From an uncultured Verrucomicrobiota bacterium (GTDB taxonomy: Bacteria > Verrucomicrobiota > Verrucomicrobiia > Verrucomicrobiales > Akkermansiaceae), in assembly GCA_937867415.1 (NCBI GenBank), contig CALMKO010000025.1, positions 1-32,788 of the forward strand: 32,788 nt of DNA, in the 5' to 3' direction. Of this stretch, positions 4,685 through 31,003 are shown one piece after another. The notes beneath the pieces were generated by a model. It was not told the origin of the DNA. It was given only the letters and a program-made list of their open reading frames with translations, and searched no databases. A program made the position numbers and the translations under genes. Within the stretch, counting starts at the first letter, position 1. Each line of letters opens with the position of its first letter.

Positions 4685-7612
4685 ATGCCTGTTAACCCTC
4701 AAGTTTTTCCTGTGAAAGTTTGCGCCCTTGCGGTTCTCTGCCTGATCGGACCGATGTCGGTGTCCCGGTTGGATGCGCAGGAGACGCCGGGGGCACCCGC
4801 CGCGCCCATGTCGCCAGCGGCGCTAAACCGGCTTTTCACGGATGCTGAGGCGGCATTTTCTGCTAAAGACTACACGACGGCGGCGTCCAAAATCGAGGAA
4901 CTCCTCAAGGCCCTGGGCGGTAACCAGAATGCCCCGCTCGAATTGCTTCATTTCAATCTCGGGCTCGCGAATTTGCTCGGTGGGAAAGCGCCCGAAGCCG
5001 AAGCCGGTTTTACGGACTGCTTGAAAAAATTCCCCAAGGGCGAGTATGCAAGCCGCTGTTATCTTGGCATCGGGCGTGCCGCTATCATGCAGGGGACTGA
5101 GGAGAAAAAAGCACGCGCGATCGAAGCCCTGAAAATGGCCGCGCAGGATCCGACCTATCGGTCTGAGGCGGGACTCTCGCTCGGAGAGGTTTACATGGAT
5201 GTCGGAAAGCGCGAGGAGGCGTTGGTTGTTTTCAAGAGCCTCATGGGGTCAGACGTTCGCTCTCCTCAGCAGACCACGGCTGCGGTTCAGGTGATTGGGT
5301 TGATCGCCGACAATGGAAAAATCGAGGATCTGATTGCCTATTTGGATCGGCTGAGCAACCAAGCAGGCGTTCGCGATGCCATTGCTTGGTATGCCAATCA
5401 GGTGATTGCACGCGGCGACGAGTTGGTCGGATCTCAGTCCTACGAAGCAGCTCTTGCGATTTACCGCACGGTTCCGCCACGCAGCCAGATCATGGATGTC
5501 CAGACCATCGCTCTCGAGTCCCAACGGAAAGACCTCAAAATCTTGGAAAACCGGGTTAACTTGGAGAAGGATAAGCCGATCGAGCAGCGCTCGAGTGCTT
5601 CTTCGCTGGTGGGAAGCCTCAAACCTGCCATCGACTTGGCGGAGGTCGCTCTCACTGCGGTTCGCGACCGCCCCGATCTTGATGCCGCCCTGTTGATGCG
5701 GCGCGGCCGATGCCTCTACTACATGGATCGTTTTGAAGAGGCGCTTGTCTGTTTCCGCATGATCCGGAACAAGTTTTCCACTTCGTCGGATGCAAAAGCC
5801 GCCGCGTTCGCCGAGATTGTCATTCTTAACAAGCTCAAGGACATCCCCAAAATCAAGGAGCTTTGTGATGACTATCTGAAAAAGTATCCTGACGCAGAGA
5901 ACGTCGAGCAAGTCGCAACTCTCGCTGGAGAAGTGCTTGTCCAGAGTGGAAACTGGGCGGAGGTCGGAAAGTTCTACCAGAGCCTTGAATCCAAGTTCCC
6001 CACATCGGAAGCGTTGGACCGCTACACGTTTTTCCAAGGCCTGTCTTTGTTCCAAGACGGCAATTTCAAGGACTCGAACCCGATCTTCCTCAAATTCCTC
6101 AAGAATTTCCCCAACAGCCCCTTGGTAGAGAATTCGATGTACTATCTCGCCATGTCTTACTTCCTCACCAACGATTACAAGAAGACTCTTGCCGCCTGTA
6201 AGGAATACCTCTCGAAGTTCCCGGACGGACGCTATGCGGGTGACATGCGCTATCGGCTCTCGTTCATTGATTTCAACGATAAGGAAGAAGACCAGACAGA
6301 CAAGATCGTCCGTGATTTGACCGCATTCCTCGCCAAGAATCCCGAGGATGGTTCGGCGGGTTCCATGTATTGCCTGCTTGCCGACACCTACAAAAAGAAA
6401 ACTTCTGACAAGCCTGACGAACTCGCCAAGTTCCAGCAAAAAGCACTCGAAGCATACCGCAACGCCGTCTGGTCCGACAGTCCGGATGACGTGATCCAAT
6501 ACGCCTTGGATAACGCCACCACCCTCCTCTCGGGCAACAAGGACTGGGCCGGCATCGCCGCCTTACACGGAGAGTTCCTTCAAAGAAAGCCAGACAGCGC
6601 CCTCTCCCTGGTTTCCGCCTCATGGGTCGCCAAAATGAAGACCCGCGAGGGCAAAGGGGCCGAAGCGGCCGAAATGCTGGCGAATGCCCTCAAATCTCGC
6701 ATCGCAAACCCGACCGCTGAGCAGGTCGAGTTCCTCATCGATGAATTGGTAAAAACCATCGTTCCACGTAAAAAGGCCGCTGAAGTCGACAAGGAGGCCT
6801 TGGACAAGCAGCTTCAGGACATCCTCAACAAGGCGATCGCCGGTCAGGAAAACGCCACCACCAACGCACGTCTTTATTACGCCCGCGCTCGCCTTGCTCA
6901 ACTGTTGAAGGATCCCATCTCATCAAACCGGCACCTCACAGGGATCGCCAAGCTCAATGCGAAGGACCCTTCAGTGCTAAGTCCGGCACTGCTCGCAGCT
7001 TCCGGAGACATCCTCCTCAACCTGGGGGACTTGGACGACGCGGAAGGCATGTTCAAGCGTCTGAGCGAGCGCTATCGAGACGGGATGTTTGCCGATGCAG
7101 GACCCGTGGGCCTCGGGTATATCGCCCTGAAGCGCAAACAGTATGCCGAGGCGCTCAAGATTTTTGTGGAAGCCGCTGAAAACAACCCCGGAACTTCCCG
7201 ATTCAAGGAGGCAACGGTCGGACAACTCGAAGCTTTGGTAGAGCTGGGCCAACTTGATGAGGCCCAGAAACTCGCCACCGCGACCGCGGGTGATAAGACC
7301 TTCCGCGGTGAATTCGCCGGCAAGGCGCTGTTGCTTCAGGGGAGAATCTTCCGTGCTCGCGCCAAAAAAGCCGAGACTCCTGAAGCCAAGTTGGATTTCT
7401 ACAAACAAGCTCACGGCACTTACAACCGGGTGTTCACCGCTTACAAAAGCACGCCGGACGTCTGTGCCGAGGGCGCGTGGCAAGCCTACGAAACCCTGCT
7501 TGAAATGGGGAATAGCGAACTTGCCGAGGAAACCCTCAAGACGCTCGTCGCCGATCCCAAACTCAAAAATACCGAACGTGCCAAGAAAGCAGCGGAAAAG
7601 GTAGGCCAATGA
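4685..7612 (+). CDS. Large secreted TPR-repeat protein, first gene of the Exb operon
   Basis: This 975-residue protein has an N-terminal signal peptide (basic VKVC, hydrophobic ALAVLCLIGP, likely cleavage near LDAQ at 29-32). Almost all the rest is helical tetratricopeptide-like repeats, with recurring patterns such as FNLGLANL, YLAMSYF, KFPDGRYA and FLKNFPNSP, similar to the TPRs of BamD/YbgF-type envelope proteins. No catalytic domain is apparent. It probably acts in the periplasm or at the outer membrane as a scaffold. The next gene starts within its stop codon (ATGA, 7609-7612), so the two are likely translationally coupled. A start at GTG 4712 is possible and would still leave a signal peptide. 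Its role in a proton-driven complex is inferred from the ExbB/ExbD genes behind it. Confidence 0.85.
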   Translation: MPVNPQVFPVKVCALAVLCLIGPMSVSRLDAQETPGAPAAPMSPAALNRLFTDAEAAFSAKDYTTAASKIEELLKALGGNQNAPLELLHFNLGLANLLGGKAPEAEAGFTDCLKKFPKGEYASRCYLGIGRAAIMQGTEEKKARAIEALKMAAQDPTYRSEAGLSLGEVYMDVGKREEALVVFKSLMGSDVRSPQQTTAAVQVIGLIADNGKIEDLIAYLDRLSNQAGVRDAIAWYANQVIARGDELVGSQSYEAALAIYRTVPPRSQIMDVQTIALESQRKDLKILENRVNLEKDKPIEQRSSASSLVGSLKPAIDLAEVALTAVRDRPDLDAALLMRRGRCLYYMDRFEEALVCFRMIRNKFSTSSDAKAAAFAEIVILNKLKDIPKIKELCDDYLKKYPDAENVEQVATLAGEVLVQSGNWAEVGKFYQSLESKFPTSEALDRYTFFQGLSLFQDGNFKDSNPIFLKFLKNFPNSPLVENSMYYLAMSYFLTNDYKKTLAACKEYLSKFPDGRYAGDMRYRLSFIDFNDKEEDQTDKIVRDLTAFLAKNPEDGSAGSMYCLLADTYKKKTSDKPDELAKFQQKALEAYRNAVWSDSPDDVIQYALDNATTLLSGNKDWAGIAALHGEFLQRKPDSALSLVSASWVAKMKTREGKGAEAAEMLANALKSRIANPTAEQVEFLIDELVKTIVPRKKAAEVDKEALDKQLQDILNKAIAGQENATTNARLYYARARLAQLLKDPISSNRHLTGIAKLNAKDPSVLSPALLAASGDILLNLGDLDDAEGMFKRLSERYRDGMFADAGPVGLGYIALKRKQYAEALKIFVEAAENNPGTSRFKEATVGQLEALVELGQLDEAQKLATATAGDKTFRGEFAGKALLLQGRIFRARAKKAETPEAKLDFYKQAHGTYNRVFTAYKSTPDVCAEGAWQAYETLLEMGNSELAEETLKTLVADPKLKNTERAKKAAEKVGQ

Positions 7613-8505
7613 ACTTCTCCAATCGCATGACGCTTTTCAAAACACCACTTCGCTTTGCCGGTTTTCTCTTCTCGGCCCTGTTGCCTGCTATCGGTCAACT
7701 CGCTGCCGCAGAGCCCATCAACATCGTGTTTCAAAACGGCCGTTCGGTTCCTCTCAATGCCGTGGCTCTCCAGGGCGACAAGCTGACCATCATCGCAGCA
7801 GCGCCGGGTTTCAATGTGGGCCAAGCCTTTCCTTTTGCCTCCGCAGACCATATCTACGGCACCAAACCTCCCGAGATCAACCAAGCCGTCGCACTGATCC
7901 TCACGGACAAGCCCGCTGACGCGCTCAAGCTGGTCGAGCCCATCGTGGCGGAGCAAAGAATCACCGCTAAAATCCCCGGAAACTTCTGGTTAGAAGCAGC
8001 GAGGGCCTCCCTCATCGCCTACGCCTTGACTGGCAACAATGCCAAATGCGTGGAAATCGGTAAAGCTGTCTCCGATGCGACCCCAGCGCAGGGAATCGAT
8101 CCATTTGTCTCTCTTGGCAAAGCCATCATGCTGCCTGAAACCACCCCGGTATCCGACCGCGCGCTCGCCTTCAGTGATCTTACCACGGATAACCTGGCCT
8201 CCGACATCTGCGCGTATGCGAGTTTTTTCCGGGCACGGCTCCTGAAGAGTGCCAAACGCAATAGCGATGCGGCTCAGGCAAGCAAGCAGGACGCCGAGGT
8301 CCTTGAGGCGTTCCTCACCGCACCCTGTGCCTATCCCGCCGGCTGCATGATTGTGAACGCCGCTTCAGAAATTCAAGCCTCCAGCTACCTGGTCACCCTC
8401 GGTCGGCGGGAGGAGGCTGTCGCGCTCCTGAATTCTGCCATCCGCCAGGCGGCCGGAACAGTGTTGATTCCGGATGCAAATAAGCGACTTGAAAGTATCA
8501 AATAA
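7609..8505 (+). CDS. Secreted protein of unknown function in the Exb operon
   Basis: This is a 298-residue protein that I do not recognise as a named family. Residues 1 to about 34 form a signal peptide (SALLPAIGQLAAAEP). A short beta-rich segment follows (about 36-85; NIVFQNGRSVPL, DKLTIIAA), then helical repeats resembling degenerate TPRs (about 90-295; ADALKLVEPIV, REEAVALLNSAI). Three cysteines are present in the mature part. Its start overlaps the stop of the preceding TPR gene by four bases, and the next gene, exbB, begins 42 bases after its stop. This tight arrangement suggests it works with the large TPR protein in the periplasm. Confidence 0.8.
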   Translation: MNFSNRMTLFKTPLRFAGFLFSALLPAIGQLAAAEPINIVFQNGRSVPLNAVALQGDKLTIIAAAPGFNVGQAFPFASADHIYGTKPPEINQAVALILTDKPADALKLVEPIVAEQRITAKIPGNFWLEAARASLIAYALTGNNAKCVEIGKAVSDATPAQGIDPFVSLGKAIMLPETTPVSDRALAFSDLTTDNLASDICAYASFFRARLLKSAKRNSDAAQASKQDAEVLEAFLTAPCAYPAGCMIVNAASEIQASSYLVTLGRREEAVALLNSAIRQAAGTVLIPDANKRLESIK

Positions 8506-8546
8506 CCACTCACATTCCCCAACAAGAACCTCATTCCACGAAATTT

Positions 8547-9317
8547 ATGAAAAACACGATCCAAAAAGCGATTTGCGCAGTCCTCTTCTTCATGCCCCTG
8601 GCCGCTTTTGGTGCGGAAAACGTCAAGAAAACGACCATGCTCGACACCTACAACGAAGGTGGCTGGGTCATGCACATTCTGCTCGTTTTCTCGATCGCGA
8701 TGGTGTGGCTCGTGATCGATGTCTGGATGCGCACCGGGGTCAAGAAAATGACTCCCCCTGAGGACGTCACACTCGCCCAGGAACTGTTCCGTGCCGGGGA
8801 CTACGTCGCCGCTTACCAAGCCATGAAAGGCAGCTTCAGCCCGTTTGCGGAAGTGATGCGCGCCGGCCTTGGCTCCGTGGGCTATGGCAAGGACGCCACC
8901 GAGGAAGCCATCTATAACACCGTGGAAAAAACCAGCTCCACTCTTCAAACTCGGATCAACTACCTCTCCGTCATCGGGGTCTGTGCGCCGATGATCGGGT
9001 TGCTCGGAACCGTTGCAGGTATGAAGGGCGCATTCGGAAGCTTGGGCGGCGGCGGCCTTTCCAGCGGTGTCAATGAACTTGCCGGACACATCGGTCACGT
9101 GCTCGTCGCCACGGCTGCGGGTCTCTTGGTCGCCATCCCCGCATTCATGGCCTTCTACTTCCTTCGTAACAAACTCCAAGGCGCCATCCATCACCTTCAT
9201 GAAGTGACCGAACACCTTTTCCGGAATGCCCCTTACGATTATCTGAAAGATGCCGACGTCGGCCAAGAGGAAACCTACGCCGCGCTTCCCAACTGGGTTC
9301 AGGCTCCGGAGGGCTAA
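8547..9317 (+). CDS. exbB: ExbB/TolQ/MotA-family proton channel subunit (first copy)
   Basis: This is the inner-membrane stator/channel subunit that with ExbD converts the proton-motive force into mechanical work. The 256 residues comprise a signal-peptide-like N-terminus (1-22, PLAAFGAEN), TM1 (about 41-61), a cytoplasmic loop, TM2 (138-160, with the conserved GLLGTVAGM) and TM3 (184-206, VLVATAAGLLVAIPA). The two pore threonines of the family are present (T155, T189). The TM3 glutamate five residues before the second threonine (Glu in E. coli TolQ/ExbB) is replaced here by His184. A Gly-rich stretch (LGGGGLSSG) lies between TM2 and TM3. The stop overlaps the next exbD start by one base (TAATG). 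Confidence 0.92.
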   Translation: MKNTIQKAICAVLFFMPLAAFGAENVKKTTMLDTYNEGGWVMHILLVFSIAMVWLVIDVWMRTGVKKMTPPEDVTLAQELFRAGDYVAAYQAMKGSFSPFAEVMRAGLGSVGYGKDATEEAIYNTVEKTSSTLQTRINYLSVIGVCAPMIGLLGTVAGMKGAFGSLGGGGLSSGVNELAGHIGHVLVATAAGLLVAIPAFMAFYFLRNKLQGAIHHLHEVTEHLFRNAPYDYLKDADVGQEETYAALPNWVQAPEG

Positions 9318-9796
9318 TGCCGATCTGTATACCGTTTACTCCAACCCTTTTCGAATCGAACGTTATGGCCAGTGCAGGTAGTGGTGATGGGGAACCCGAG
9401 TTCCAGATTGCTCCGATGATCGACGTGTTGCTGGTGCTGCTCGTGTTCTTCGTGGTGATTACTTCCGCCCAGGTTCTCAAGGTTGACGCGCTTTTGACTC
9501 TTCCCACCTCTCCCAATGCAAAGCCCCGTGAATCGGAAATGGCCAAGCATGAGATGGCGGTCAATCTCCGCCACGATGCCCAAACCAACAAGGGAGTGCT
9601 CGTCTTGGATGACCGCATCATCGACAACTGGCAGGATGCCATCCCTATTCTGAAGGACAGCCTTTCAAGAGACGCCAAACTTCGCGTCGTCGTCCGGGGG
9701 GATGCGAAAGTCCCAGCGGGTGAAATCCAGCGCGTCATGGACCTGATCGGGCAGGCAGGTATCGCGGACATCGCCTTCGCAGCTTCTAACAAGTAA
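9317..9796 (+). CDS. exbD: ExbD/TolR-family subunit (first copy)
   Basis: This 159-residue bitopic protein has a short cytoplasmic N-terminus and one membrane helix beginning with FQIAPMIDVLLVLLVFF. It carries the proton-binding aspartate of the family (D36), and a periplasmic domain follows with the usual pattern ending in DLIGQAGIADIAFA. The ATG overlaps the exbB stop (TAATG) and has GGAGG at 9308-9312, the only good Shine-Dalgarno sequence seen in the window. An internal ATG at 9365 (MASAGSGDG) would give 143 residues and a more typical N-terminus, so the true start is open. It pairs with the ExbB directly upstream. Confidence 0.9.
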   Translation: MPICIPFTPTLFESNVMASAGSGDGEPEFQIAPMIDVLLVLLVFFVVITSAQVLKVDALLTLPTSPNAKPRESEMAKHEMAVNLRHDAQTNKGVLVLDDRIIDNWQDAIPILKDSLSRDAKLRVVVRGDAKVPAGEIQRVMDLIGQAGIADIAFAASNK

Positions 9797-9802
9797 ATAA
9801 TT

Positions 9803-10261
9803 GTGACGAAAAAACACAAAAAACGCCGCAAAAGTTCTGCCGAGGTGAATCTCGGCTTCCAGATCGCACCGATGATCGACGTGGTCTTCGTGATCCTCTT
9901 GTTCTTCATCGCCCAGGCTAGTAACATCCAAGTGGAAAACGCCCACGTAACCAAGCTCCCTGGAAGCGTTGAGGCCGTAGGAGCGGTGGACCTCCCCGAC
10001 GAGATCGCCATCCGTATCGAAGAGGACGGCCAGGTTTACCTCAATGACGATCCTCTGGACGCTCCAGAGGCAAAGGCGCTCCCCGAGCTGGCAAGCAGTT
10101 TGAATAGTTTGCGTGAGGCAAGCGACGCATCGAAGTCGAAAGTCCTGGTAACGATTTACGCAAACGAACTTGCGCTTTACTCCAGAGTGATCGACGTTCT
10201 CGACGCCTTGAGTCGCGCGAAAATCACCGATGTTACTTTCCAGGCGGGCAGCAATGAGTGA
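9803..10261 (+). CDS. exbD: ExbD/TolR-family subunit (second copy)
   Basis: This 152-residue protein starts at GTG 9803, six bases after the first exbD. A strongly basic N-terminus (TKKHKKRRK) precedes the membrane helix FQIAPMIDVVFVILLFF with the family aspartate at D26. The periplasmic part ends with VIDVLDALSRAKITDVTFQ. Apart from the shared QIAPMIDV box it differs from the first copy in both tails, so the two are not a recent duplication. One ExbB followed by two ExbD genes resembles the AglR-AglQ-AglS set of Myxococcus gliding motility. This suggests a heteromeric ExbD pair inside one ExbB ring. Confidence 0.9.
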   Translation: MTKKHKKRRKSSAEVNLGFQIAPMIDVVFVILLFFIAQASNIQVENAHVTKLPGSVEAVGAVDLPDEIAIRIEEDGQVYLNDDPLDAPEAKALPELASSLNSLREASDASKSKVLVTIYANELALYSRVIDVLDALSRAKITDVTFQAGSNE

Positions 10262-10316
10262 TCCTCTGCCGCCATCCACCCATTCAGTTCCCATAATCCT
10301 CTAATCCACCACTTCC

Positions 10317-11864
10317 ATGCAGCTATACGATGAAGAAGGTAACCTCATCCGAGTCGAGGAGGCCAAGCCCTCTTGGTGGCAGGAGTTGGGCGCTGGTTCG
10401 CTTACCATCGCCGCAGCCTTCCATGCGATTCTATTGCTTGTAGGTGCATTCTGGGTTTTCAAAATTTACCAAGAGCCTGAGAAGAAGGTCGACTTCATGC
10501 CTCCCGGCGGTGGTGGCGGCGAACGCGGAGCCGAGCACCAAATTCAAAAAAAGCGTGCCCAGATTACGCCCACCACGAACGTCAAACGTGTCTTCGCAGA
10601 AGGCGCTACAGCTTCTTATGCCATCCCGGAGCAGGGTGATAGCTTCGGTGAGATGTCTACGCTCAGCTCTCTGAGCGGCGGTGGCATGTCCGGCGGCCTG
10701 GGGGGCGGCGGCGCAGGAAGTGGCTTCGGCAAGGGAGCCGGCCTCGGCGGTGGCGGACTCGGAATGGGCGCTGGCGTTGGCAAGCTCTTCGGGCTGATCC
10801 CCGAGAACATGCGGAAACGCTGCTCAAAGGAAGACCGCCTCGAACGACTTAAGGAAAGTGGCGGCACGCCAGCCTGCGATGAGGCTGTGACCCGTGGCCT
10901 GCGCTGGCTCAAATCAAAACAAAATTCAGACGGTTCCTGGGGTGGGTCGAACAAACCTGCCATGACCGGACTTGTCCTGCTCGCCTACTTTGGCCACTGC
11001 GAAACTCCCGCATCCGAGGAATTCGGTGATTCCTGCATGAAGGGCATTGTCTATCTCGCCAACTTCGGCATGAAAAACGAAGGCAAACTGGCAAGCAACT
11101 TCACTCAGAACGGATGGTGCTACGAACATGGAATCGCCACCTACGCCCTGGGCGAGGCTCTTACCTTCTGTAAAGAACTGAAACTCGAAATTCCCGGTCT
11201 GGTCGAAGTGACTGAAAAAGCCGGCCAATTCATCATCGACAACCAAAACAAAAATGGAGGCTGGGCCTATCTTTTTGCAACTGAGGGTGGGCATACCGAC
11301 TCATCCGTGGTCGGCTGGCAGCTGCAAGCTCTCAAAGCATGCAGCCACACAGGTATCAAATACAAGGGGATCTCCAGCAGCGTGAACAAGGGCCTTGACT
11401 ACCTCAGCGAGTTACAAGGCGAAGATGGTGGCTTTGGTTATAACGGGCGCGGCAGACCGTCAGGAGGCGGCACCTATTGTTCACTCACCGGCGTGGGAGT
11501 CCTTTGTTTCCAAATGTGGGGTAAGGGAAGCGCATCCGAAGTGCGCAAAGGGGTGAAGTACATTCGTGAAAATAGCAAGTTAGACTGGTCCACGGATGAC
11601 TCCGATCTTTACGCCCATTATTATGAATCCCAAGCCATGATGCAGGCCGGCGGGGATGAGTGGAAACACTACAACGAACTCTTCAGGGACCAGCTCCTCA
11701 ACAACCAGAACCCGGACGGTTCTTGGAAAGCGCCCAAATACACAGGCCACGGACAAGGGGGAAATGAACTCTACCGCAATACCCTCTGCATCCTCATGTT
11801 GGAAGTATATTATCGCTTCCTCAACACGGGTGGAGGCCAACGTGGCGGGCGGCCAGGCATCTAG
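10317..11864 (+). CDS. TonB-like membrane-anchored protein with a periplasmic squalene-cyclase-type alpha/alpha toroid
   Basis: The 515 residues comprise a short cytoplasmic N-terminus (1-27), one membrane helix (28-48, SLTIAAAFHAILLLVGAFW), a low-complexity linker with Gly-rich blocks (63-67 and 120-155), and a helical-repeat domain (about 175-505). The domain belongs to the prenyltransferase/squalene oxidase repeat superfamily. Repeats show as QNSDGSWGG (202-210), QNKNGGWAY (290-298), LQGEDGGFGY (356-365) and QNPDGSW (454-460). No terpene-cyclase DxDD motif is seen, so a binding or scaffold role seems more likely than cyclisation. Topology and position behind exbB-exbD-exbD mimic TonB or TolA. 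The domain has many Cys (for example C179, C218, C230, C258). No ligand can be predicted. Confidence 0.85.
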   Translation: MQLYDEEGNLIRVEEAKPSWWQELGAGSLTIAAAFHAILLLVGAFWVFKIYQEPEKKVDFMPPGGGGGERGAEHQIQKKRAQITPTTNVKRVFAEGATASYAIPEQGDSFGEMSTLSSLSGGGMSGGLGGGGAGSGFGKGAGLGGGGLGMGAGVGKLFGLIPENMRKRCSKEDRLERLKESGGTPACDEAVTRGLRWLKSKQNSDGSWGGSNKPAMTGLVLLAYFGHCETPASEEFGDSCMKGIVYLANFGMKNEGKLASNFTQNGWCYEHGIATYALGEALTFCKELKLEIPGLVEVTEKAGQFIIDNQNKNGGWAYLFATEGGHTDSSVVGWQLQALKACSHTGIKYKGISSSVNKGLDYLSELQGEDGGFGYNGRGRPSGGGTYCSLTGVGVLCFQMWGKGSASEVRKGVKYIRENSKLDWSTDDSDLYAHYYESQAMMQAGGDEWKHYNELFRDQLLNNQNPDGSWKAPKYTGHGQGGNELYRNTLCILMLEVYYRFLNTGGGQRGGRPGI

Positions 11865-11949
11865 CGCTCTTTCCCGATCCGGGATATTTCAATCGCCGGC
11901 GGACCGTGCTTGCGTTCGCCGCTTGCTCCGTTACACTCCACGGACGTCC

Positions 11950-12792
11950 ATGAAGTGCTGCCATCTCTCAGTCACGGTTTTTTTCCTTGCCGGACTCCTT
12001 GCCAACGCCGCCCCAGAAGCTCCCGCAAAGTTGCCTACGGAACTGAACTTTCTTGAAATCCTGCTCAAGGGAGGCGTCATGATGTATCCACTCGGCTTGA
12101 TGTCGATTTTTACCGTTCTGTTGATTTTGATATTCCTCCTGACCATCCGCCGGAATGCCATCGTCAGCGATCGCTTCATGACCAGCGTGGATACGCTTGT
12201 GAGAAAACGTGACTTGCTCGCGCTCAACTCTTTGAGTCACCGCCGCAACGAGTGTATGGCCCGGATCACCCAGAAAACCCTGGATTTCATCTCTGCCAAC
12301 CCAAATACCTCTTTTGACAATGTGCGTGATGTGGCGCAGGCGGAGGGTTCCCACCAGGCCAACATGTTGACATCGCGAATCTCCTACCTCGCCGACATCG
12401 GTGGCATCGCGCCGATGGTAGGTCTGTTGGGAACGGTGATCGGGATGGTCAAGGCCTTCTTGGAAATTTCCGCCGGTGAGGGCACCGGAGTAAGGCAGAT
12501 GGGCTTGGCGGAAGGCGTCTCAGAGGCCCTCATCGCCACCGCGGGCGGACTTGCGATCAGCATTCCTGCCTTGGTGTTCTACTCGATTTTCCGTGGCCGA
12601 GTTCAAAAATACACCTCTGAACTGGAAGCCGCCGCCACTCATTTCATTGCCATCCTCCAGATGCAGTTCGACCGGTCTACCACTTCGGCGCCACAACCCT
12701 ACGCCCAACCCTCACTTCGCCCGCGGGAAGATTATGCCATGCCTGTCGCTTCGCCACTTGTTGGCGAGCGGCCCGATGTTCATGGAATTTAA
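11950..12792 (+). CDS. exbB: ExbB/TolQ/MotA-family proton channel subunit (second copy)
   Basis: The start at ATG 11950 gives 280 residues and a signal-peptide-like N-terminus (VTVFFLAGLLANAAPEA). The frame is open further upstream but that part overlaps the toroid gene and looks non-coding. TM1 lies at about 43-65, TM2 at about 144-170 (IAPMVGLLGTVIGM) and TM3 at about 183-205. TM3 reads GVSEALIATAGGLAISIPA, almost the TolQ consensus, with both the glutamate and the threonine five residues later. The C-terminal 35 residues are Pro-rich (TSAPQPYAQPSLRP). The 85-base gap from the toroid gene holds a weak promoter-like pair (TTGCGT 11910-11915, TACACT 11932-11937), so this half might also be transcribed separately. 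It likely pairs with the exbD 11 bases downstream. Confidence 0.92.
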   Translation: MKCCHLSVTVFFLAGLLANAAPEAPAKLPTELNFLEILLKGGVMMYPLGLMSIFTVLLILIFLLTIRRNAIVSDRFMTSVDTLVRKRDLLALNSLSHRRNECMARITQKTLDFISANPNTSFDNVRDVAQAEGSHQANMLTSRISYLADIGGIAPMVGLLGTVIGMVKAFLEISAGEGTGVRQMGLAEGVSEALIATAGGLAISIPALVFYSIFRGRVQKYTSELEAAATHFIAILQMQFDRSTTSAPQPYAQPSLRPREDYAMPVASPLVGERPDVHGI

Positions 12793-12803
12793 GTGAAACG
12801 CGC

Positions 12804-13226
12804 ATGAAATTCACCACCCGTCAGCCACCGCCAGTCTCCATTCAGTTGGCGCCGATGATTGATATCCTCCTGCTCCTGCTCTGCTTCTTCATCATCAGTT
12901 GGCAATATAGCAAGTCGGAAACAGAGCTCAAAGTGGCTGTTCCAACCGCTCAGGAAGGGGCCGAGCCCAACGACCGCCAACGCGGTGAAATCATCATCAA
13001 TGTGCTCGCGGACGGAGTCATCCGCGTCGAGGGCCTGGCCGTCGACCGCCCGCAACTCTTGGAAAAACTCTCTGCAATCGCCAAACAGTATAAGAATCAA
13101 CCCGTTCGCATCCGCGGTGATGGAGGCGTTGCCTACCAGCGCATCGTCGAGGTCATCGATACCTGCCAAAAGGCCGGAATCTGGAACATCTCCTTCGCCA
13201 CCCAGCGCCCGGAACCCGCCAAGTGA
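12804..13226 (+). CDS. exbD: ExbD/TolR-family subunit (third copy)
   Basis: This 140-residue bitopic protein has the helix IQLAPMIDILLLLLCFFII carrying the family aspartate (D20). Its periplasmic domain ends in VIDTCQKAGIWNISFAT, the ExbD/TolR fold signature. It lies 11 bases after the second exbB, and its last codons overlap the next gene by GTGA (13223-13226). It therefore forms an exbB-exbD pair separate from the upstream exbB-exbD-exbD set. Both tails differ from the first two ExbD proteins. Confidence 0.92.
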   Translation: MKFTTRQPPPVSIQLAPMIDILLLLLCFFIISWQYSKSETELKVAVPTAQEGAEPNDRQRGEIIINVLADGVIRVEGLAVDRPQLLEKLSAIAKQYKNQPVRIRGDGGVAYQRIVEVIDTCQKAGIWNISFATQRPEPAK

Positions 13227-15646
13227 TTGGCTTGGCAAACGCCTCAAACCGCACCAAGCTCTTCCTCCTCTTGAAAAGCACCATCGCTTCCATCTTCCTG
13301 CTCGCCAGCCCCGTAATCGCGCAGATTCCGCGGGCCGAGGCTGTGGACCCAACTCTCGGAGTCGATGCCGCAAACGACTTCTTCATGCGTGGCAAAAATC
13401 TCTACGACAGCGCCCAAGCCAGCGTGGATCAAGCCAGCAGGATCGACTATTTCCAGCGTGCCGGGCAAATCTTCGCAGACTACCTGAACCATTTCCCAAA
13501 TCATCCCAACGCCGAGATGGCATGGTGGTATCTTGGAAACAGTTATTACCAGTCCGGCCAGATCGACGAAGGAAAACGCTGCTTCAGCACCTTGCTCAAC
13601 CGCTATGGTAAAGGCAAGTGGGCGGCGGCGGCGGCTTACACCCTGGCTGCGGACTACTATAACAAGTCGGAGTATGCATTTGCCGCTCCCATGTTTGAGC
13701 GCTTTGCGGCGAATGCGGCCAAACCCGAAGAACGTCCCCGCGGAAACTACCTCGCCGGAAATTGTTATCGACTGCTCGGCCGCGATCGGGAAGCCATCGC
13801 ATCCTTCCGGAGAGTCATCGAGGATCCCGCTGGTGGCCTGTTCGCGCCACAGGCCAAGGTCGCCCTCGGTCACCTCACGCTCAAGGCAGGCAAACTTACC
13901 GAAGCACTTGCCATTTTCGAAGAGGTAGTCGCCGCTCCCTATCTGCCAAAAATTCGTGGGGAGGCCGCGCTACATGCGGCTCTCACCAGCACCAAGCTGG
14001 ATCAAACCGATCTTTCCGAAAAATACCTGCGTTTGATCCTGAGCACCCCGGGGATGGAAGACTTCCGCCCGGACGCCCAAACCGCATTGATGGGCAACCA
14101 CTTCGCCAAAAAGGAATACCGCGAAGTCATCGATATCTTCCGCCGCAGCTCCGTGAAAGGGGAAGGGGAAAAAGAAGCAACCCGACTCATGATCGCCGCC
14201 CGGGCCTACATGCGGCTCAAGCTCCCCACGGAAGGCCTCCAACTCTTCCGCGATGTCGAGAAGCTGGTCAAGCCGGAGTCCGACATGGCCTTCCAAGCAT
14301 CCTACTACCGGCTCCTGTGCTTCTTCCAAATCGAAGGCCGCCACCTGCCGGACCAGGTCGACGCCTTCCTCCAGCTCTATCAAAAATCACGCAAGGATGA
14401 TCCCCGCATCCACACCGCCCTGATGATGAAGGCTGAAACCCTGTTCTCCAATAAAATGATTACCGAGGCGGCTCAGGTGTATAATGAAATCAACGCCACC
14501 GTGCTCACGGAAGAAAACCGCCAGAACCTCCTGTTTCAGCGCGGCTGGTGTCTATCAGAAGCAGGCGATGCCCAAGGGGCGGTGCGTTCGCTGGGGGAAT
14601 TCATCACCCAGTATCCTCAAGACTCGCGGGTCCCCTCGGCCATCGCCAAGCGTGCGAGCGCCTACGCTGCAAGCGCGGAACCGGCCAAGGCGATTGCGGA
14701 CTTTGATCTCCTCATCAACAACTCCAAGACCCCTGCGGATTTGTCCGGATTCGCATGGCTGGAGTCGGCACGTCTGCGCCGCTCGGAAAACAATGTTCCC
14801 GACATGATGACTCGTTATCAAGGGCTTCTTAAAAATGTCAAAACACTCAGCGACGGCTTGCAGGCAGAGGCCAACTACTGGATCGGCTGGGGCCTGGTGA
14901 AAACCAATCTTGCCAAAGACTCACCACCCTACCTCGAAAAAGCCCGTGAACTCAACCCCGACGGATACCGCAAACACGCCGGCCTGCTCCTCGTGCTCGG
15001 CTACTTCGCCTCACAAAACCCTTCAAGCCTCGCTGCGGAAATCAATCTCGCCATCAAGGGCGGATACGCCGCAGATATCCCGGACCAGACGATCCAATGG
15101 TCTGCCATGCAGTCCTACAACGCCGGGGATTTCCAATCGGCCGCGAAGTTTCTCACCCGAGTCTCCAACCCCGAAGAACCCCGCGAGACCCCCAAGGAAG
15201 TCTGGCGCTACCTCGCCAAGTCGCGGCTGAAAATCGGCGATGCGGAAGCTGCGCTCACCGCCGTGAACCACCTGCTCGCCGTCGAAGAAGATCTCGGTTG
15301 GAAAGCCGATGGTTTGTTAGACCGTGGTCGCGCCCTGCTGATGCTCGACCGCCCCGCAGAAGCTCGCAAGGCTTCCGATGAAGCACTTGCCCTCCGCCCC
15401 CAAGGCCACACCAGCGCCGGCTTGAACATCCTCATCGGCGACCTTGAACTCAAGGCGGGCGATCCTAGAACCGCTGCCGGGAAATACCAGGTCGTCGTCC
15501 AGTTCCACGACGACAAGGAACTCAACCCCCTCGCCCTTTCAAAACTCGTTCAAGCGCTGCAACAGCAAGGTGACCTGACCGAAGCCGCAAAATACACCGA
15601 AAAACTCCAAGCCGAATTCCCGGGTTGGAAACCACCCGGACCCTAA
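13223..15646 (+). CDS. Large secreted TPR-repeat protein, last gene of the Exb operon
   Basis: This 807-residue protein starts at GTG 13223 inside the stop of exbD (GTGA overlap). The signal peptide covers 1 to about 34 (LLLKSTIASIFLLASPVIAQ, cleavage near VIA-Q). The mature protein is helical TPR repeats over its whole length, of the kind found in BamD and CpoB/YbgF envelope proteins (FADYLNHFPNHP, WWYLGNSYY, FITQYPQDSRVPSAIAKRAS). In E. coli the tol-pal cluster also ends with a TPR protein (CpoB/YbgF), so a comparable accessory role is plausible, but this protein is about three times larger. With the TPR gene at 4685 it brackets the ExbB/ExbD genes. speA begins 23 bases later. Confidence 0.87.
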   Translation: MIGLANASNRTKLFLLLKSTIASIFLLASPVIAQIPRAEAVDPTLGVDAANDFFMRGKNLYDSAQASVDQASRIDYFQRAGQIFADYLNHFPNHPNAEMAWWYLGNSYYQSGQIDEGKRCFSTLLNRYGKGKWAAAAAYTLAADYYNKSEYAFAAPMFERFAANAAKPEERPRGNYLAGNCYRLLGRDREAIASFRRVIEDPAGGLFAPQAKVALGHLTLKAGKLTEALAIFEEVVAAPYLPKIRGEAALHAALTSTKLDQTDLSEKYLRLILSTPGMEDFRPDAQTALMGNHFAKKEYREVIDIFRRSSVKGEGEKEATRLMIAARAYMRLKLPTEGLQLFRDVEKLVKPESDMAFQASYYRLLCFFQIEGRHLPDQVDAFLQLYQKSRKDDPRIHTALMMKAETLFSNKMITEAAQVYNEINATVLTEENRQNLLFQRGWCLSEAGDAQGAVRSLGEFITQYPQDSRVPSAIAKRASAYAASAEPAKAIADFDLLINNSKTPADLSGFAWLESARLRRSENNVPDMMTRYQGLLKNVKTLSDGLQAEANYWIGWGLVKTNLAKDSPPYLEKARELNPDGYRKHAGLLLVLGYFASQNPSSLAAEINLAIKGGYAADIPDQTIQWSAMQSYNAGDFQSAAKFLTRVSNPEEPRETPKEVWRYLAKSRLKIGDAEAALTAVNHLLAVEEDLGWKADGLLDRGRALLMLDRPAEARKASDEALALRPQGHTSAGLNILIGDLELKAGDPRTAAGKYQVVVQFHDDKELNPLALSKLVQALQQQGDLTEAAKYTEKLQAEFPGWKPPGP

Positions 15647-15669: not shown

Positions 15670-17622
15670 ATGACCCCGCCCGCCACCGCCGCCGCGCCTG
15701 CCAAATCCCCCAAGCGTAAACCCGAGACCGCTTGGACTTCTCAGAAATCCGCCGAACTCTACGGAGTAAACACCTGGGGCAGCGGATTCTTCGGCGTCAA
15801 TAAACAGGGCCACGTCACCGTCCGCCTTGAGGACGACAACGCCCAGGCAGAAGTCTCGCTCTACGAGGTGATCGACGGACTTCGCGACCGCGGCACCCAT
15901 CTGCCGGTCCTGCTCCGCTTCCGCGACCTTCTCCACTCGCGCATCACCGAGATCAACGAGTCCTTCAACAAGGCCATCAAGGACTCGAAATACCGGGGCG
16001 AATATCGCGGCGTCTATCCCATCAAGGTCAACCAACAGCGCCAGGTCATCGAGGAAATTGCCGAGTTTGGGAAAAAGTATCACTACGGCCTTGAAGCTGG
16101 ATCCAAGCCGGAACTCATCGCCGCTCTTGCCCACATGCATGATCCCGAGGCCTATCTGATTTGCAATGGCTACAAGGACGAGGAATTCATCGACCTCGCG
16201 CTCCACGCCCAGAAAATGGGCCTGCGGGTCATGTTGGTGTTGGAAATGCCAAGCGAGCTCGACCTCATCCTTGAGCGCTCGCGCAAAATCGGCGTCCTGC
16301 CAAACCTCGGCGTCCGCGTCCGGCTGTCCACCAAAGGCTCGGGACATTGGCAGGACAGCGCGGGTGATAAATCCGTCTTCGGCCTCAATGCCTCCCAAGT
16401 CATCGCCGTGGTGGATCGCCTCAAGGACTCCGGCTACATCGGATGCCTGAAAATGCTTCATTACCACCAGGGTTCACAAATCCCGAACATTGCCGCCATC
16501 CGCGAAGGAGCCACCGAGGCCGTCCGGATGTATTGCGACCTTGTCAAGGAAGGCGCCCCCATGGGCGTGCTCGACATCGGCGGTGGCATGGCCGTGGATT
16601 ACGACGGCTCACACACGAACTTCCACTCTTCCTGCAACTACTCCGTGGCGGAATACTGCACGGACATCGTGGAGGTGATTTCCCAAATCTGCGACAAGGC
16701 CGGAGTCACCCACCCGAACCTGATCTCCGAGTCCGGCCGGGCCGTCGTCGCCTATTACTCGGTGCTGGTCTTCAATATCCTGGACGTCACCAGCGCCCAA
16801 ACCAGCGAGGAAGCCCCGCCCATTCCTGAAAACGCTCCGCAGAACCTCATGAACATCATCGAGGTCAACAAGGTCATTCATAAGAAAAACCTTCAGGAGT
16901 GCTTCAATGACGCCATGTATTACCGCGACCAGATGCGCGCCCAGTTTTTCTACGGTGCCGCCACCTTGCGGGAGCGTGGCCTTGCGGAAGCATGGTTCTG
17001 GCACATCCTCACCCGAATCTCCAACCTCATCGCCGAGCTCGATGACATCCCCGAGGACCTCCGGGAACTTTCCTCGACCCTGGTGGATTTCTACTACGGT
17101 AACTTCAGCTTGTTCCAATCCCTGCCGGACTCCTGGGCCATCGACCAGGTCTTCCCCGTCATGCCCATCCACCGGCTTGATGAAAAACCCCGCCACCGCG
17201 CCGTGCTGGCGGATATCACCTGTGATTGCGACGGCAAGATCGACCGCTTCATCGACAAGGAGGACGTTGCCAAAATCCTCCCCTTGCACGACTTCAAGCA
17301 GGATGAGCCCTACTACCTCGCCGTCTTCCTCGTCGGAGCCTATCAGGAAACACTGGGAGATCTCCATAACCTGTTAGGCGATACCAATGTGGTCGGAGTG
17401 CACCTCGAGAATGGCAAAGCCGTTTACACCCATGAGGTGGAAGGTGATACGGTGGCGGATGTGCTCAGTTATGTGGAGTTCGACCCCAAGGAACTGGTCA
17501 GCCGCTTCCGCATCTTCGCGGAAAAGGCTGTCACCGAGGGCAGGATCTCCCCCAAAGAGCGCCGCGAGATCCTGGATCTCTTCCGCGAGGGTCTTGCCGG
17601 TTACACCTATTTCGAAAGCTGA
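15670..17622 (+). CDS. speA: Biosynthetic arginine decarboxylase
   Basis: This PLP enzyme of the alanine-racemase-like fold decarboxylates arginine to agmatine, the first step of one route to putrescine and longer polyamines. From ATG 15670 it has 650 residues, in the normal SpeA range (630-660). The PLP lysine lies in YPIKVNQQ (K119). Other family signatures are LKMLHYHQGSQIPN (around 265), the phosphate-binding loop GGGMAVDYDGS (around 305) and ISESGRAVVA. The open frame extends 15 codons upstream into the TPR gene, but ATG 15670 gives the natural N-terminus. It lies 23 bases after the Exb operon in the same direction and may be transcribed with it, although the function looks unrelated. 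No other polyamine gene is in the window. Confidence 0.93.
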   Translation: MTPPATAAAPAKSPKRKPETAWTSQKSAELYGVNTWGSGFFGVNKQGHVTVRLEDDNAQAEVSLYEVIDGLRDRGTHLPVLLRFRDLLHSRITEINESFNKAIKDSKYRGEYRGVYPIKVNQQRQVIEEIAEFGKKYHYGLEAGSKPELIAALAHMHDPEAYLICNGYKDEEFIDLALHAQKMGLRVMLVLEMPSELDLILERSRKIGVLPNLGVRVRLSTKGSGHWQDSAGDKSVFGLNASQVIAVVDRLKDSGYIGCLKMLHYHQGSQIPNIAAIREGATEAVRMYCDLVKEGAPMGVLDIGGGMAVDYDGSHTNFHSSCNYSVAEYCTDIVEVISQICDKAGVTHPNLISESGRAVVAYYSVLVFNILDVTSAQTSEEAPPIPENAPQNLMNIIEVNKVIHKKNLQECFNDAMYYRDQMRAQFFYGAATLRERGLAEAWFWHILTRISNLIAELDDIPEDLRELSSTLVDFYYGNFSLFQSLPDSWAIDQVFPVMPIHRLDEKPRHRAVLADITCDCDGKIDRFIDKEDVAKILPLHDFKQDEPYYLAVFLVGAYQETLGDLHNLLGDTNVVGVHLENGKAVYTHEVEGDTVADVLSYVEFDPKELVSRFRIFAEKAVTEGRISPKERREILDLFREGLAGYTYFES

Positions 17623-29254: not shown

Positions 29255-30928
29255 TTACCAAGGCAGCGGAAACGCACGGTTGAATGCGAATACGCGCTCC
29301 CGGATGGCGTGGAGCCTTTCCGTGTTGGTGTGGTCGGCGAGAGCCTCGGCGATGAAATCCGCGACCTGCTCGACGTCCTTTTCCTTCAGGCCGCGGGTGG
29401 TGACGGCTGGCGTGCCGATGCGGATGCCGCTGGGCTTCATCGGGCTGCCGGTGTCGAAAGGAATTCCGTTCTTGTTGACGGTGATACCCGCTTCATCGAG
29501 GGCATGGGAGGCGTCGGTGCCATTCAGATTCTTGTTGCGGAGATCGACAAGCATGACGTGGTTGTCCGTGCCGCCTGAGCAGATGCGGAACCCATGATGC
29601 GTGAGGCGGGCGGCGATGGCCTGCGCGTTCCTGACGACTTGCGCGGAGTATTCCTTGAACTCAGGCTTGAGCGCCTCGCCAAAACATACTGCCTTGGCGG
29701 CAATCACATGCATCAACGGCCCACCCTGGATGCCCGGGAATACTTGGGAATCGATTTTCTTCGCAAATTCTTCCTTGCAAAGAATGATCCCGCCACGCGG
29801 GCCACGCAGCGATTTATGCGTGGTGGAGGTGACAAAATCAGCATGCGGAAATGGACTCGGATGGACCCCGGCGGCTACGAGGCCGGCGATGTGAGCCATG
29901 TCCACGAACAAATAAGAACCGATCTCGCGGGCAAGCTTGCCCATGCGCTCGAAGTCGATGATTCGTGAGTAAGCAGACGCTCCCACGGTGATCAGCGCGG
30001 GTTTCAGCTCACGGGCGGTTTTTTCCAATTCATCGTAGTTGATCCGCTCATCGTCCGGTGAAACCCCATAGTGGGTGACATCGTAAAAACGGCCGGAAAA
30101 GTTCGCCTTGTGACCATGAGTGAGGTGCCCACCGTGGGCGAGGTCCATGGTGAAGATTTTATCACCCGGCTTGAGCACGGAGAAATAAACAGCGGTGTTG
30201 GCTTGTGACCCGGAGTGGGGCTGCACATTGGCGTGCTCGGCTCCGAAAAGTTGCTTGGCGCGGTCGATCGCAAGCTGCTCGACTACATCCACATTCTCAC
30301 ACCCCCCATACCAACGCTTGCCCGGGTAGCCTTCCGCGTACTTGTTTGTGAGCAAGGACCCTTGAGCCTCCATGACCGCGGGCGAGGCGAAATTCTCCGA
30401 CGCGATCAGCTCGATGTTGTTCCGCTGGCGGCGCTCCTCAGCGGTGATCGCGGCGTATATCGCCGGATCCGTCTCTTGAATACGGCTGCCGGAGGATTTA
30501 CAGACCCGCCCCTCATGGCGCCCACCTGAAAAGGCTGTGGCGAGGAAGGCGTCCGCCATGGCGATGGCGGTGATCTCGTCGGTGAACAACCCACTCAGAC
30601 ACAACACATTGGAGTCATTGTGCTCACGGGTCGTGATGGTCTCCGCGACAGAACGCACATTCGCCGCACGCACATGGCGGTGGCGGTTCGCGGCGATGCA
30701 CATGCCCACGCCTGACGTGCAGGCAAGGATCCCGAAGTCATAAGTGCCGTCTCCAACCATACGCGCAACGGAATTCGCATAGTCTGCGTAATCCACCGAA
30801 TCATGGGTGTGGGTTCCCAAATCAAGAACCTCATGGCCGACAGCCTTGAGATGCTTGACGACTGCGTTCTTGAGATCGACAGCACCGTGATCGGCGCCGA
30901 TGGCAATGCGAAAGGTAGGATGGCTCAT
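29255..30928 (-). CDS. glyA: Fusion of ribose-5-phosphate isomerase B and serine hydroxymethyltransferase
   Basis: A single 557-residue frame encodes two complete enzymes. Residues 3-145 are RpiB (ribose 5-phosphate/ribulose 5-phosphate isomerase): D13/H14 in IGADHG, the catalytic Cys in [10 protein letters not shown] (C70) and H103 in REHNDSNVL. After a short linker (about 143-153), residues 154-557 are serine hydroxymethyltransferase, which makes glycine and 5,10-methylene-tetrahydrofolate. It has IELIASENF (172-180), [20 protein letters not shown] and the PLP lysine in [13 protein letters not shown] (K372). No ATG occurs near the junction until well inside the SHMT fold, so the SHMT part cannot simply be read as a separate gene with a normal N-terminus. 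The start at 30928 is preferred over one 11 codons upstream. The 75-base gap to the exonuclease gene allows co-transcription. Confidence 0.93.
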
Positions 30929-31003
30929 GGACAGGACGGGATTCAATGCTCGGATTGCCAACTTGCAAACCGCAAATTTCAGAGAAATTCGCCAAGCGTA
31001 ACC

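Follow-up and report, generated by a model that had tools for sequence, protein, structure and literature searches.

A candidate proton-motor cassette with a toroid-headed transducer and interchangeable heads on a common anchor in Verrucomicrobiota

The nine co-directional genes found in an uncultured relative of Akkermansia make up two modules, not one machine. We consider it probable, at roughly two chances in three, that module 1 (TPR975, S298, ExbB1, ExbD1, ExbD2 and the toroid protein) encodes a proton-driven motor which drives a TonB/TolA-like transducer carrying a toroid head, with TPR975 and S298 as scaffolds, and that module 2 (ExbB2, ExbD3 and TPR807) is a separate motor. The toroid and PA14 heads and the swapping of heads are new here, and a version of the cassette with a vWA head is already known.

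The nine-gene locus and its two modules

The window, that is the whole stretch of 32,788 nucleotides analysed, encodes nine open reading frames at 4685-15646, all on the plus strand. The locus opens with TPR975 (4685..7612), a large secreted protein with Pfam TPRs that keeps the same position in module-1 loci wherever the contig extends that far, and with the secreted protein S298 (7609..8505), described from its predicted structure. These are followed by the TolQ-like motor subunit ExbB1 (8547..9317; Pfam MotA_ExbB, 1.9e-23), the TolR-like subunits ExbD1 (9317..9796; Pfam ExbD, 4.5e-19) and ExbD2 (9803..10261, GTG start; 1.6e-19) and the toroid-headed transducer (10317..11864), which closes module 1 and was delineated by Pfam SQHop_cyclase_C (E 9.9e-11), the anchor alignment and a structure model. 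Module 2 consists of the TolQ-like ExbB2 (11950..12792; Pfam MotA_ExbB), the TolR-like ExbD3 (12804..13226; Pfam ExbD, 3.2e-29) and the secreted TPR protein TPR807 (13223..15646, GTG start), which scores 122.9 bits against the YbgF/CpoB model TIGR02795 (cut-off 90.1). Spacings within module 1 are -4 nt (TPR975/S298, ATGA), +41 nt (S298/ExbB1), -1 nt (ExbB1/ExbD1, TAATG), +6 nt (ExbD1/ExbD2) and +55 nt (ExbD2/toroid); the toroid gene and ExbB2 are 85 nt apart, and module 2 continues with +11 nt (ExbB2/ExbD3) and -4 nt (ExbD3/TPR807, GTGA). The ExbB2 frame is open from 11656, within the toroid gene, and the ATG at 11950, which gives a signal-like N terminus, is plausibly the likelier start.

The order and overlaps proposed in the initial annotation were borne out by the reading frames, the spacings and the Pfam scan, in which MotA_ExbB was matched in both ExbBs, ExbD in all three ExbDs and TPRs in both large proteins. 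The membrane aspartate that it ascribed to every ExbD was read in all three (PMIDVLLV, PMIDVVFV and PMIDILLL), and its statement that tonB, tolA, pal, tolB and receptor genes are absent from the cluster agrees with Pfam, by which TonB_C, TolA, TolB, Pal and receptor domains were not matched among the nine genes. Consensus promoters (5 found, 5.0 expected in shuffled sequence) and terminators (16 found, 15.9 expected) occurred at the shuffled level and hence lend no support to co-transcription. The locus is flanked on the left by uvrC and, beyond it, a penicillin-binding protein gene, and on the right by a tenth gene, the arginine decarboxylase gene speA (15670..17622, plus strand), which starts 23 nt after TPR807. 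Although speA lies downstream in all nine nine-gene loci (8 genomes, as L045 and L059 are the same contig), it is probably not part of the machine. Elsewhere in the window, a fused gene on the minus strand (29255-30961) encodes an RpiB/LacAB ribose/galactose isomerase domain followed by serine hydroxymethyltransferase.

The view of the nine genes as a single machine was not upheld by their distribution, as most of the genomes searched have module 2 away from the toroid gene. TPR807 was found in 37 of 39 genomes and adjoins the toroid gene in seven of the 39 (G000, G001, G003, G009, G010, G011 and G013). In 18 of 20 further regions away from toroid genes it is accompanied by ExbB2 and ExbD3, which were not detected beside it at the cut-off used in L238 and L239. 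A divergent uvrC lies upstream of ExbB2 in 7 of 23 TPR807 loci without module 1 directly in front (the 20 fetched regions plus L188, L190 and L213; some other contigs are too short to tell); two of the seven are from presumed Akkermansia genomes and five from the window's genus. Among the nine-gene loci it stands divergent beside TPR975 in three of nine (the window, L060 and L062), was not found in the part of the upstream sequence covered for L045/L059, L058 and L061, and the contigs of L046 and L066 end there. Module 1 may have entered between uvrC and module 2, or else it may have been lost elsewhere, or the modules moved separately. In the nine-gene cluster L066 (G010), S298 and TPR807 are split across several frames, by decay or sequencing error.

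Module 1 is itself conserved. Of 28 genomes, those among the 39 with a toroid copy fetched at length, 16 have a toroid gene preceded by ExbB and two or more ExbDs (17 of 29 with G013, which was merged with the identical copy L045), and TPR975 and S298 are also present in 13 of these 16; the toroid copies recovered from the remaining 12 are not preceded by motor genes. The gene-neighbourhood comparison recovered the module-1 order outside the source genome, also in another family of the order, at L085, L086 and L087 (genus g8) and, with S298 not matched, at L075 (genus g4), so that for module 1 the order is conserved in other genera. Toroid-headed cassettes beyond the 39 genomes occur in G215, G285 and G302, of the same family. 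The proposal of a dedicated motor with its own effector and scaffolds is thereby supported in the form of a motor set with a transducer and periplasmic scaffolds.

The transducer anchor and its heads

By its anatomy, with a His-bearing helix, a Gly-rich linker and a toroid head, the toroid protein looks like a transducer of the TonB/TolA type. The anchor region, common to PA14- and vWA-headed proteins (10347..10793, plus strand, alignment A1), comprises a membrane helix with His36, KVDFMPPGGGGG, an ITP..KRVFAEG motif and the Gly-rich linker, in which one proline (P94 of the aligned region) is invariant in 28/28 and where the structure model, viewed for a motor-box beta strand, is disordered. 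Residues 1-161 of the toroid protein recur on other proteins of the source genome, with a vWA head at C26 and PA14 heads at C127 (over the Pfam cut-off) and C31 (below it), and contig C447 bears a second TPR-ExbB-ExbD-ExbD cluster with a diverged anchor and a vWA-like product (by eye; no Pfam match). On C26, a second TPR975-like gene lies in fragments beside the vWA-headed anchor gene (L049:2955-5193), perhaps as a decayed cassette.

An anchor match was found in 86 of the 288 genomes sampled from the phylum. The helix histidine is present in 80 of 91 counted anchors. Of the 35 called motor-linked, for which ExbB and ExbD had to precede the anchor gene on its own strand, 34 have it, as do 46 of the other 56. 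Fifteen of these 56 come from loci below 5 kb that possibly hide a motor. The 91 rows kept for the tree and this count came from 124 candidates, of which 11 were removed because the locus was truncated or a duplicate, 6 because no anchor was matched, 9 because the anchor scored below 30 bits and 7 because no head had been assigned; the copies at L063 (4750), L064 (14305) and L115 (complete in L217) sit immediately upstream of a cassette. As the histidine is missing by eye in the left-out low-scoring rows L078 (at 11038), L094 and L198-L200, and likewise at that place in L091 and L092, neither of which matched the anchor, the figure of 46/56 overstates conservation in unlinked copies.

Ten anchors without the histidine, whose heads are toroid, PA14 or vWA, cluster together in the anchor tree (support 80) and count against a driven transducer. 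A diverged ExbB-ExbD-ExbD-TPR cassette was found in seven genomes of the window's genus, and the six genomes taken as Akkermansia have it with the TPR gene (four) or as ExbB-ExbD-ExbD only (two). It was seen in six of the eight genomes of the His-less group, away from the transducer genes (the other two were not sampled there); in G150, it is separated from the two toroid transducers by about 700 kb. This would fit a motor and transducer that diverged together. The exception is the transducer at L073:8979-10634 (G018), which is toroid-headed and motor-linked yet without the histidine. G018 has the diverged cassette as well, and this transducer too speaks against the driven reading.

Toroid, PA14 and vWA-like heads all occur behind ExbB-ExbD-ExbD, in different genomes. 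Single heads are a toroid in the window, PA14 at L173 and L178 and a vWA-like head, assigned by eye, at L052, L177, L180 and L181; two heads in succession are vWA then PA14 (L174), two toroids (L168) and toroid then PA14 (L162 and L167). The vWA label was given by eye to L052, L175, L176, L177, L180 and L181, with a sub-threshold Pfam VWA match for L180 and none for L052, L176 and L177, the labels of L175 and L181 being by eye only. On the anchor tree, a quick and short one (133 columns) with 30 of 87 inner branches open, 23 head changes are needed against a minimum of 2, and anchors with different heads inside one genome are 20-93% identical (37 pairs, of which four reach at least 73%). Together these imply either that one anchor was joined to different heads many times or that some anchors are kept alike within a genome, and both fit a shared motor. 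At L174:8022-11238 (G050), tandem transducers with vWA and PA14 heads have anchors 93% identical, and the first also has a SAM domain. At L217:7424-14923 (G288), a vWA-headed transducer precedes TPR975, S298, ExbB and three ExbDs on one strand.

The arrangement suggests that these bacteria power several kinds of tool with one motor type. More tentatively, as an idea we hold at somewhat less than even odds, one type of proton motor may serve Verrucomicrobiota as a general drive for interchangeable periplasmic toroid, PA14 and vWA heads, in which the toroid would offer a cavity of enzyme fold to which mechanical load is applied, for instance to grip glycan polymers and draw them across the periplasm. 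If one anchor drives all three heads, force transduction in the envelope would be a modular platform.

The toroid head, its partners and competing explanations

The head is predicted to be an alpha/alpha-toroid spanning about residues 177-503 (10845..11825, plus strand), which follows a disordered linker in a model with an overall mean pLDDT of 62.1 built on an alignment of five sequences. The head model resembles squalene-hopene cyclase 8paj_A (Z 25.6, rmsd 2.8, 280 aligned) and also sugar epimerases and GH76 (Z 22.1-24.1), and it shares QW-like repeats with the cyclase. The DxDD motif is the defining catalytic motif of class II terpene cyclases, and it was found in none of 54 transducer toroids, which also differ from the cyclase in being joined to a membrane anchor. 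Twelve positions, C228, E229, Y269, H271, E280, D328, S330, W334, Y432, Y435, Y436 and Q439, are identical in 54/54 toroids, and several of the polar ones are also kept in six secreted relatives. Such an invariant polar set suggests that some ligand is probably bound in the cavity.

The prediction for S298 is a small beta domain at residues 36-83 and, from 88 to 298, a TPR-like solenoid, with a mean pLDDT of 72.7. The solenoid matches TPR folds with Z up to 13.6 (rmsd 4.2, 182 aligned), which for repeat folds may reflect only a common arrangement. No Pfam match over the cut-off was obtained for S298, and none of the TPR proteins matched by it in the VIA-align structure list gives it a function. 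A relation to DUF3450/TtpC was considered and rejected, as S298 has no DUF3450 match; a DUF3450 protein occurs at C208 of the source genome, together with an ExbB with a DUF3450-like N-terminal part.

From these parts we infer a mechanism in which a ring of ExbB1 and the ExbD1/ExbD2 pair would form a proton-driven motor in the inner membrane and exert force on the toroid protein. The transducer helix would dock on ExbB through the conserved histidine and the linker would meet ExbD, so placing the head in the periplasm, where TPR975 and S298 may act as scaffolds joining it to the load. Module 2 would work as an ExbB-ExbD-TPR motor of its own; a few genomes have it beside module 1, and most of those searched have it at another place. 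Our best guess for the load, from fold and ecology only, is a polymer or glycan complex of the periplasm or outer membrane that the toroid cavity would hold.

The competing explanations are partly compatible with the driven transducer, and not all of them are exclusive. Toroids of such fold are often enzymes, and this one might be no more than a periplasmic enzyme for which the anchor is only a membrane tether and which shares an operon with the motor by chance. The invariant polar residues, in part kept in secreted relatives, a fold common to sugar epimerases, GH76 and terpene cyclases, and the 12 of 28 genomes whose fetched toroids have no motor upstream, which also weigh against the driven transducer, would all suit such an enzyme. 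However, the histidine is kept in most counted copies without upstream motor genes (46/56, as above), and PA14 and vWA heads sit on the same anchor, and we regard this explanation as unlikely, with about one chance in five left to it in our estimation.

Somewhat less likely still is a Tol-Pal-like machine, in which the motor would help in holding or constricting the outer membrane and in coupling that membrane to synthesis of the wall, TPR807 being CpoB and the toroid protein replacing TolA. TPR807 and TPR975 both exceed the YbgF/CpoB cut-off, and the surroundings would suit a link to the wall: the PBP gene lies beyond uvrC in the window, and in G150 module 2 is flanked by uvrC and a transglycosylase gene, with no module 1 adjoining (L190:2751-9955). 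But TPR807 and TPR975 are also hit by BamD, PorW/SprE and further TPR models, so that the CpoB match is weak evidence; TolB, Pal and TolA domains were unmatched in the nine genes, and frequent exchange of heads is unlike a fixed division machine. TonB-type import, with the toroid in place of the TonB C-terminal domain, would accord with ExbB, ExbD, an anchor with a TonB/TolA-type histidine and six receptor Plug matches in the genome. The cluster, however, has no receptor gene, the toroid protein has no TonB_C, and contigs C50 and C208, both with ExbB and ExbD genes, supply the genome with ordinary TonB_C proteins, at least two in all; we consider import improbable, clearly the least likely of the three.

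Relation to known systems

Among the loads of ExbB/ExbD-type motors, TonB and TolA are the best known. The window set shares with the Ton system ExbB, ExbD with the membrane aspartate and the His-bearing anchor helix, but has two different ExbDs and neither TonB_C nor a receptor in the cluster. With Tol-Pal (TolQ-TolR-TolA-TolB-Pal-CpoB) it shares TolQ/TolR-like subunits and TPR proteins that match the CpoB model, whereas the TolA C-terminal domain, TolB and Pal are missing.

The initial annotation knew of no described function for this set, yet something like it is described, since the vWA version of the cassette appears in the main text of Williams-Jones et al. 2025 (PMC12204202). There, vWA-headed force transducers are reported from PVC and other bacteria; in the PVC group their genes follow TPR, tolQ-like and paired tolR-like genes. 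AF3 models dock these transducers through the same helix histidine, and their function is unknown by the paper's own account. Common to both cassettes, as far as that main text describes the vWA one, are the helix histidine, a disordered linker, a globular head other than TonB_C and, upstream of the transducer, TPR, tolQ-like and two different tolR-like genes. The window differs in that its head is an alpha/alpha toroid and not a vWA fold, and the present set adds PA14 heads, S298 and, in a few genomes, an adjoining second motor module. The words 'toroid', 'PA14' and 'squalene' do not occur in the main text of PMC12204202, and a literature search, largely at listing level, returned no description of a toroid- or PA14-headed transducer.

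Selfish glycan uptake has been reported in aquatic Akkermansiaceae (PMC13174399, available text), and if one anchor drives toroid, PA14 and vWA heads, these cassettes would be candidate motors for it. The same text describes the mucin locus MUL1 as resembling Sus and as without synteny in aquatic Akkermansiaceae; identity of the cassette with MUL1 of A. muciniphila was rejected, since MUL1 is not syntenic and motor cassettes are present in the window's genus. A loose parallel only is offered by Fibrobacter succinogenes, in which, according to the available text of PMC6851124, ExbB, two ExbD and a TonB-family protein were raised on cellulose.
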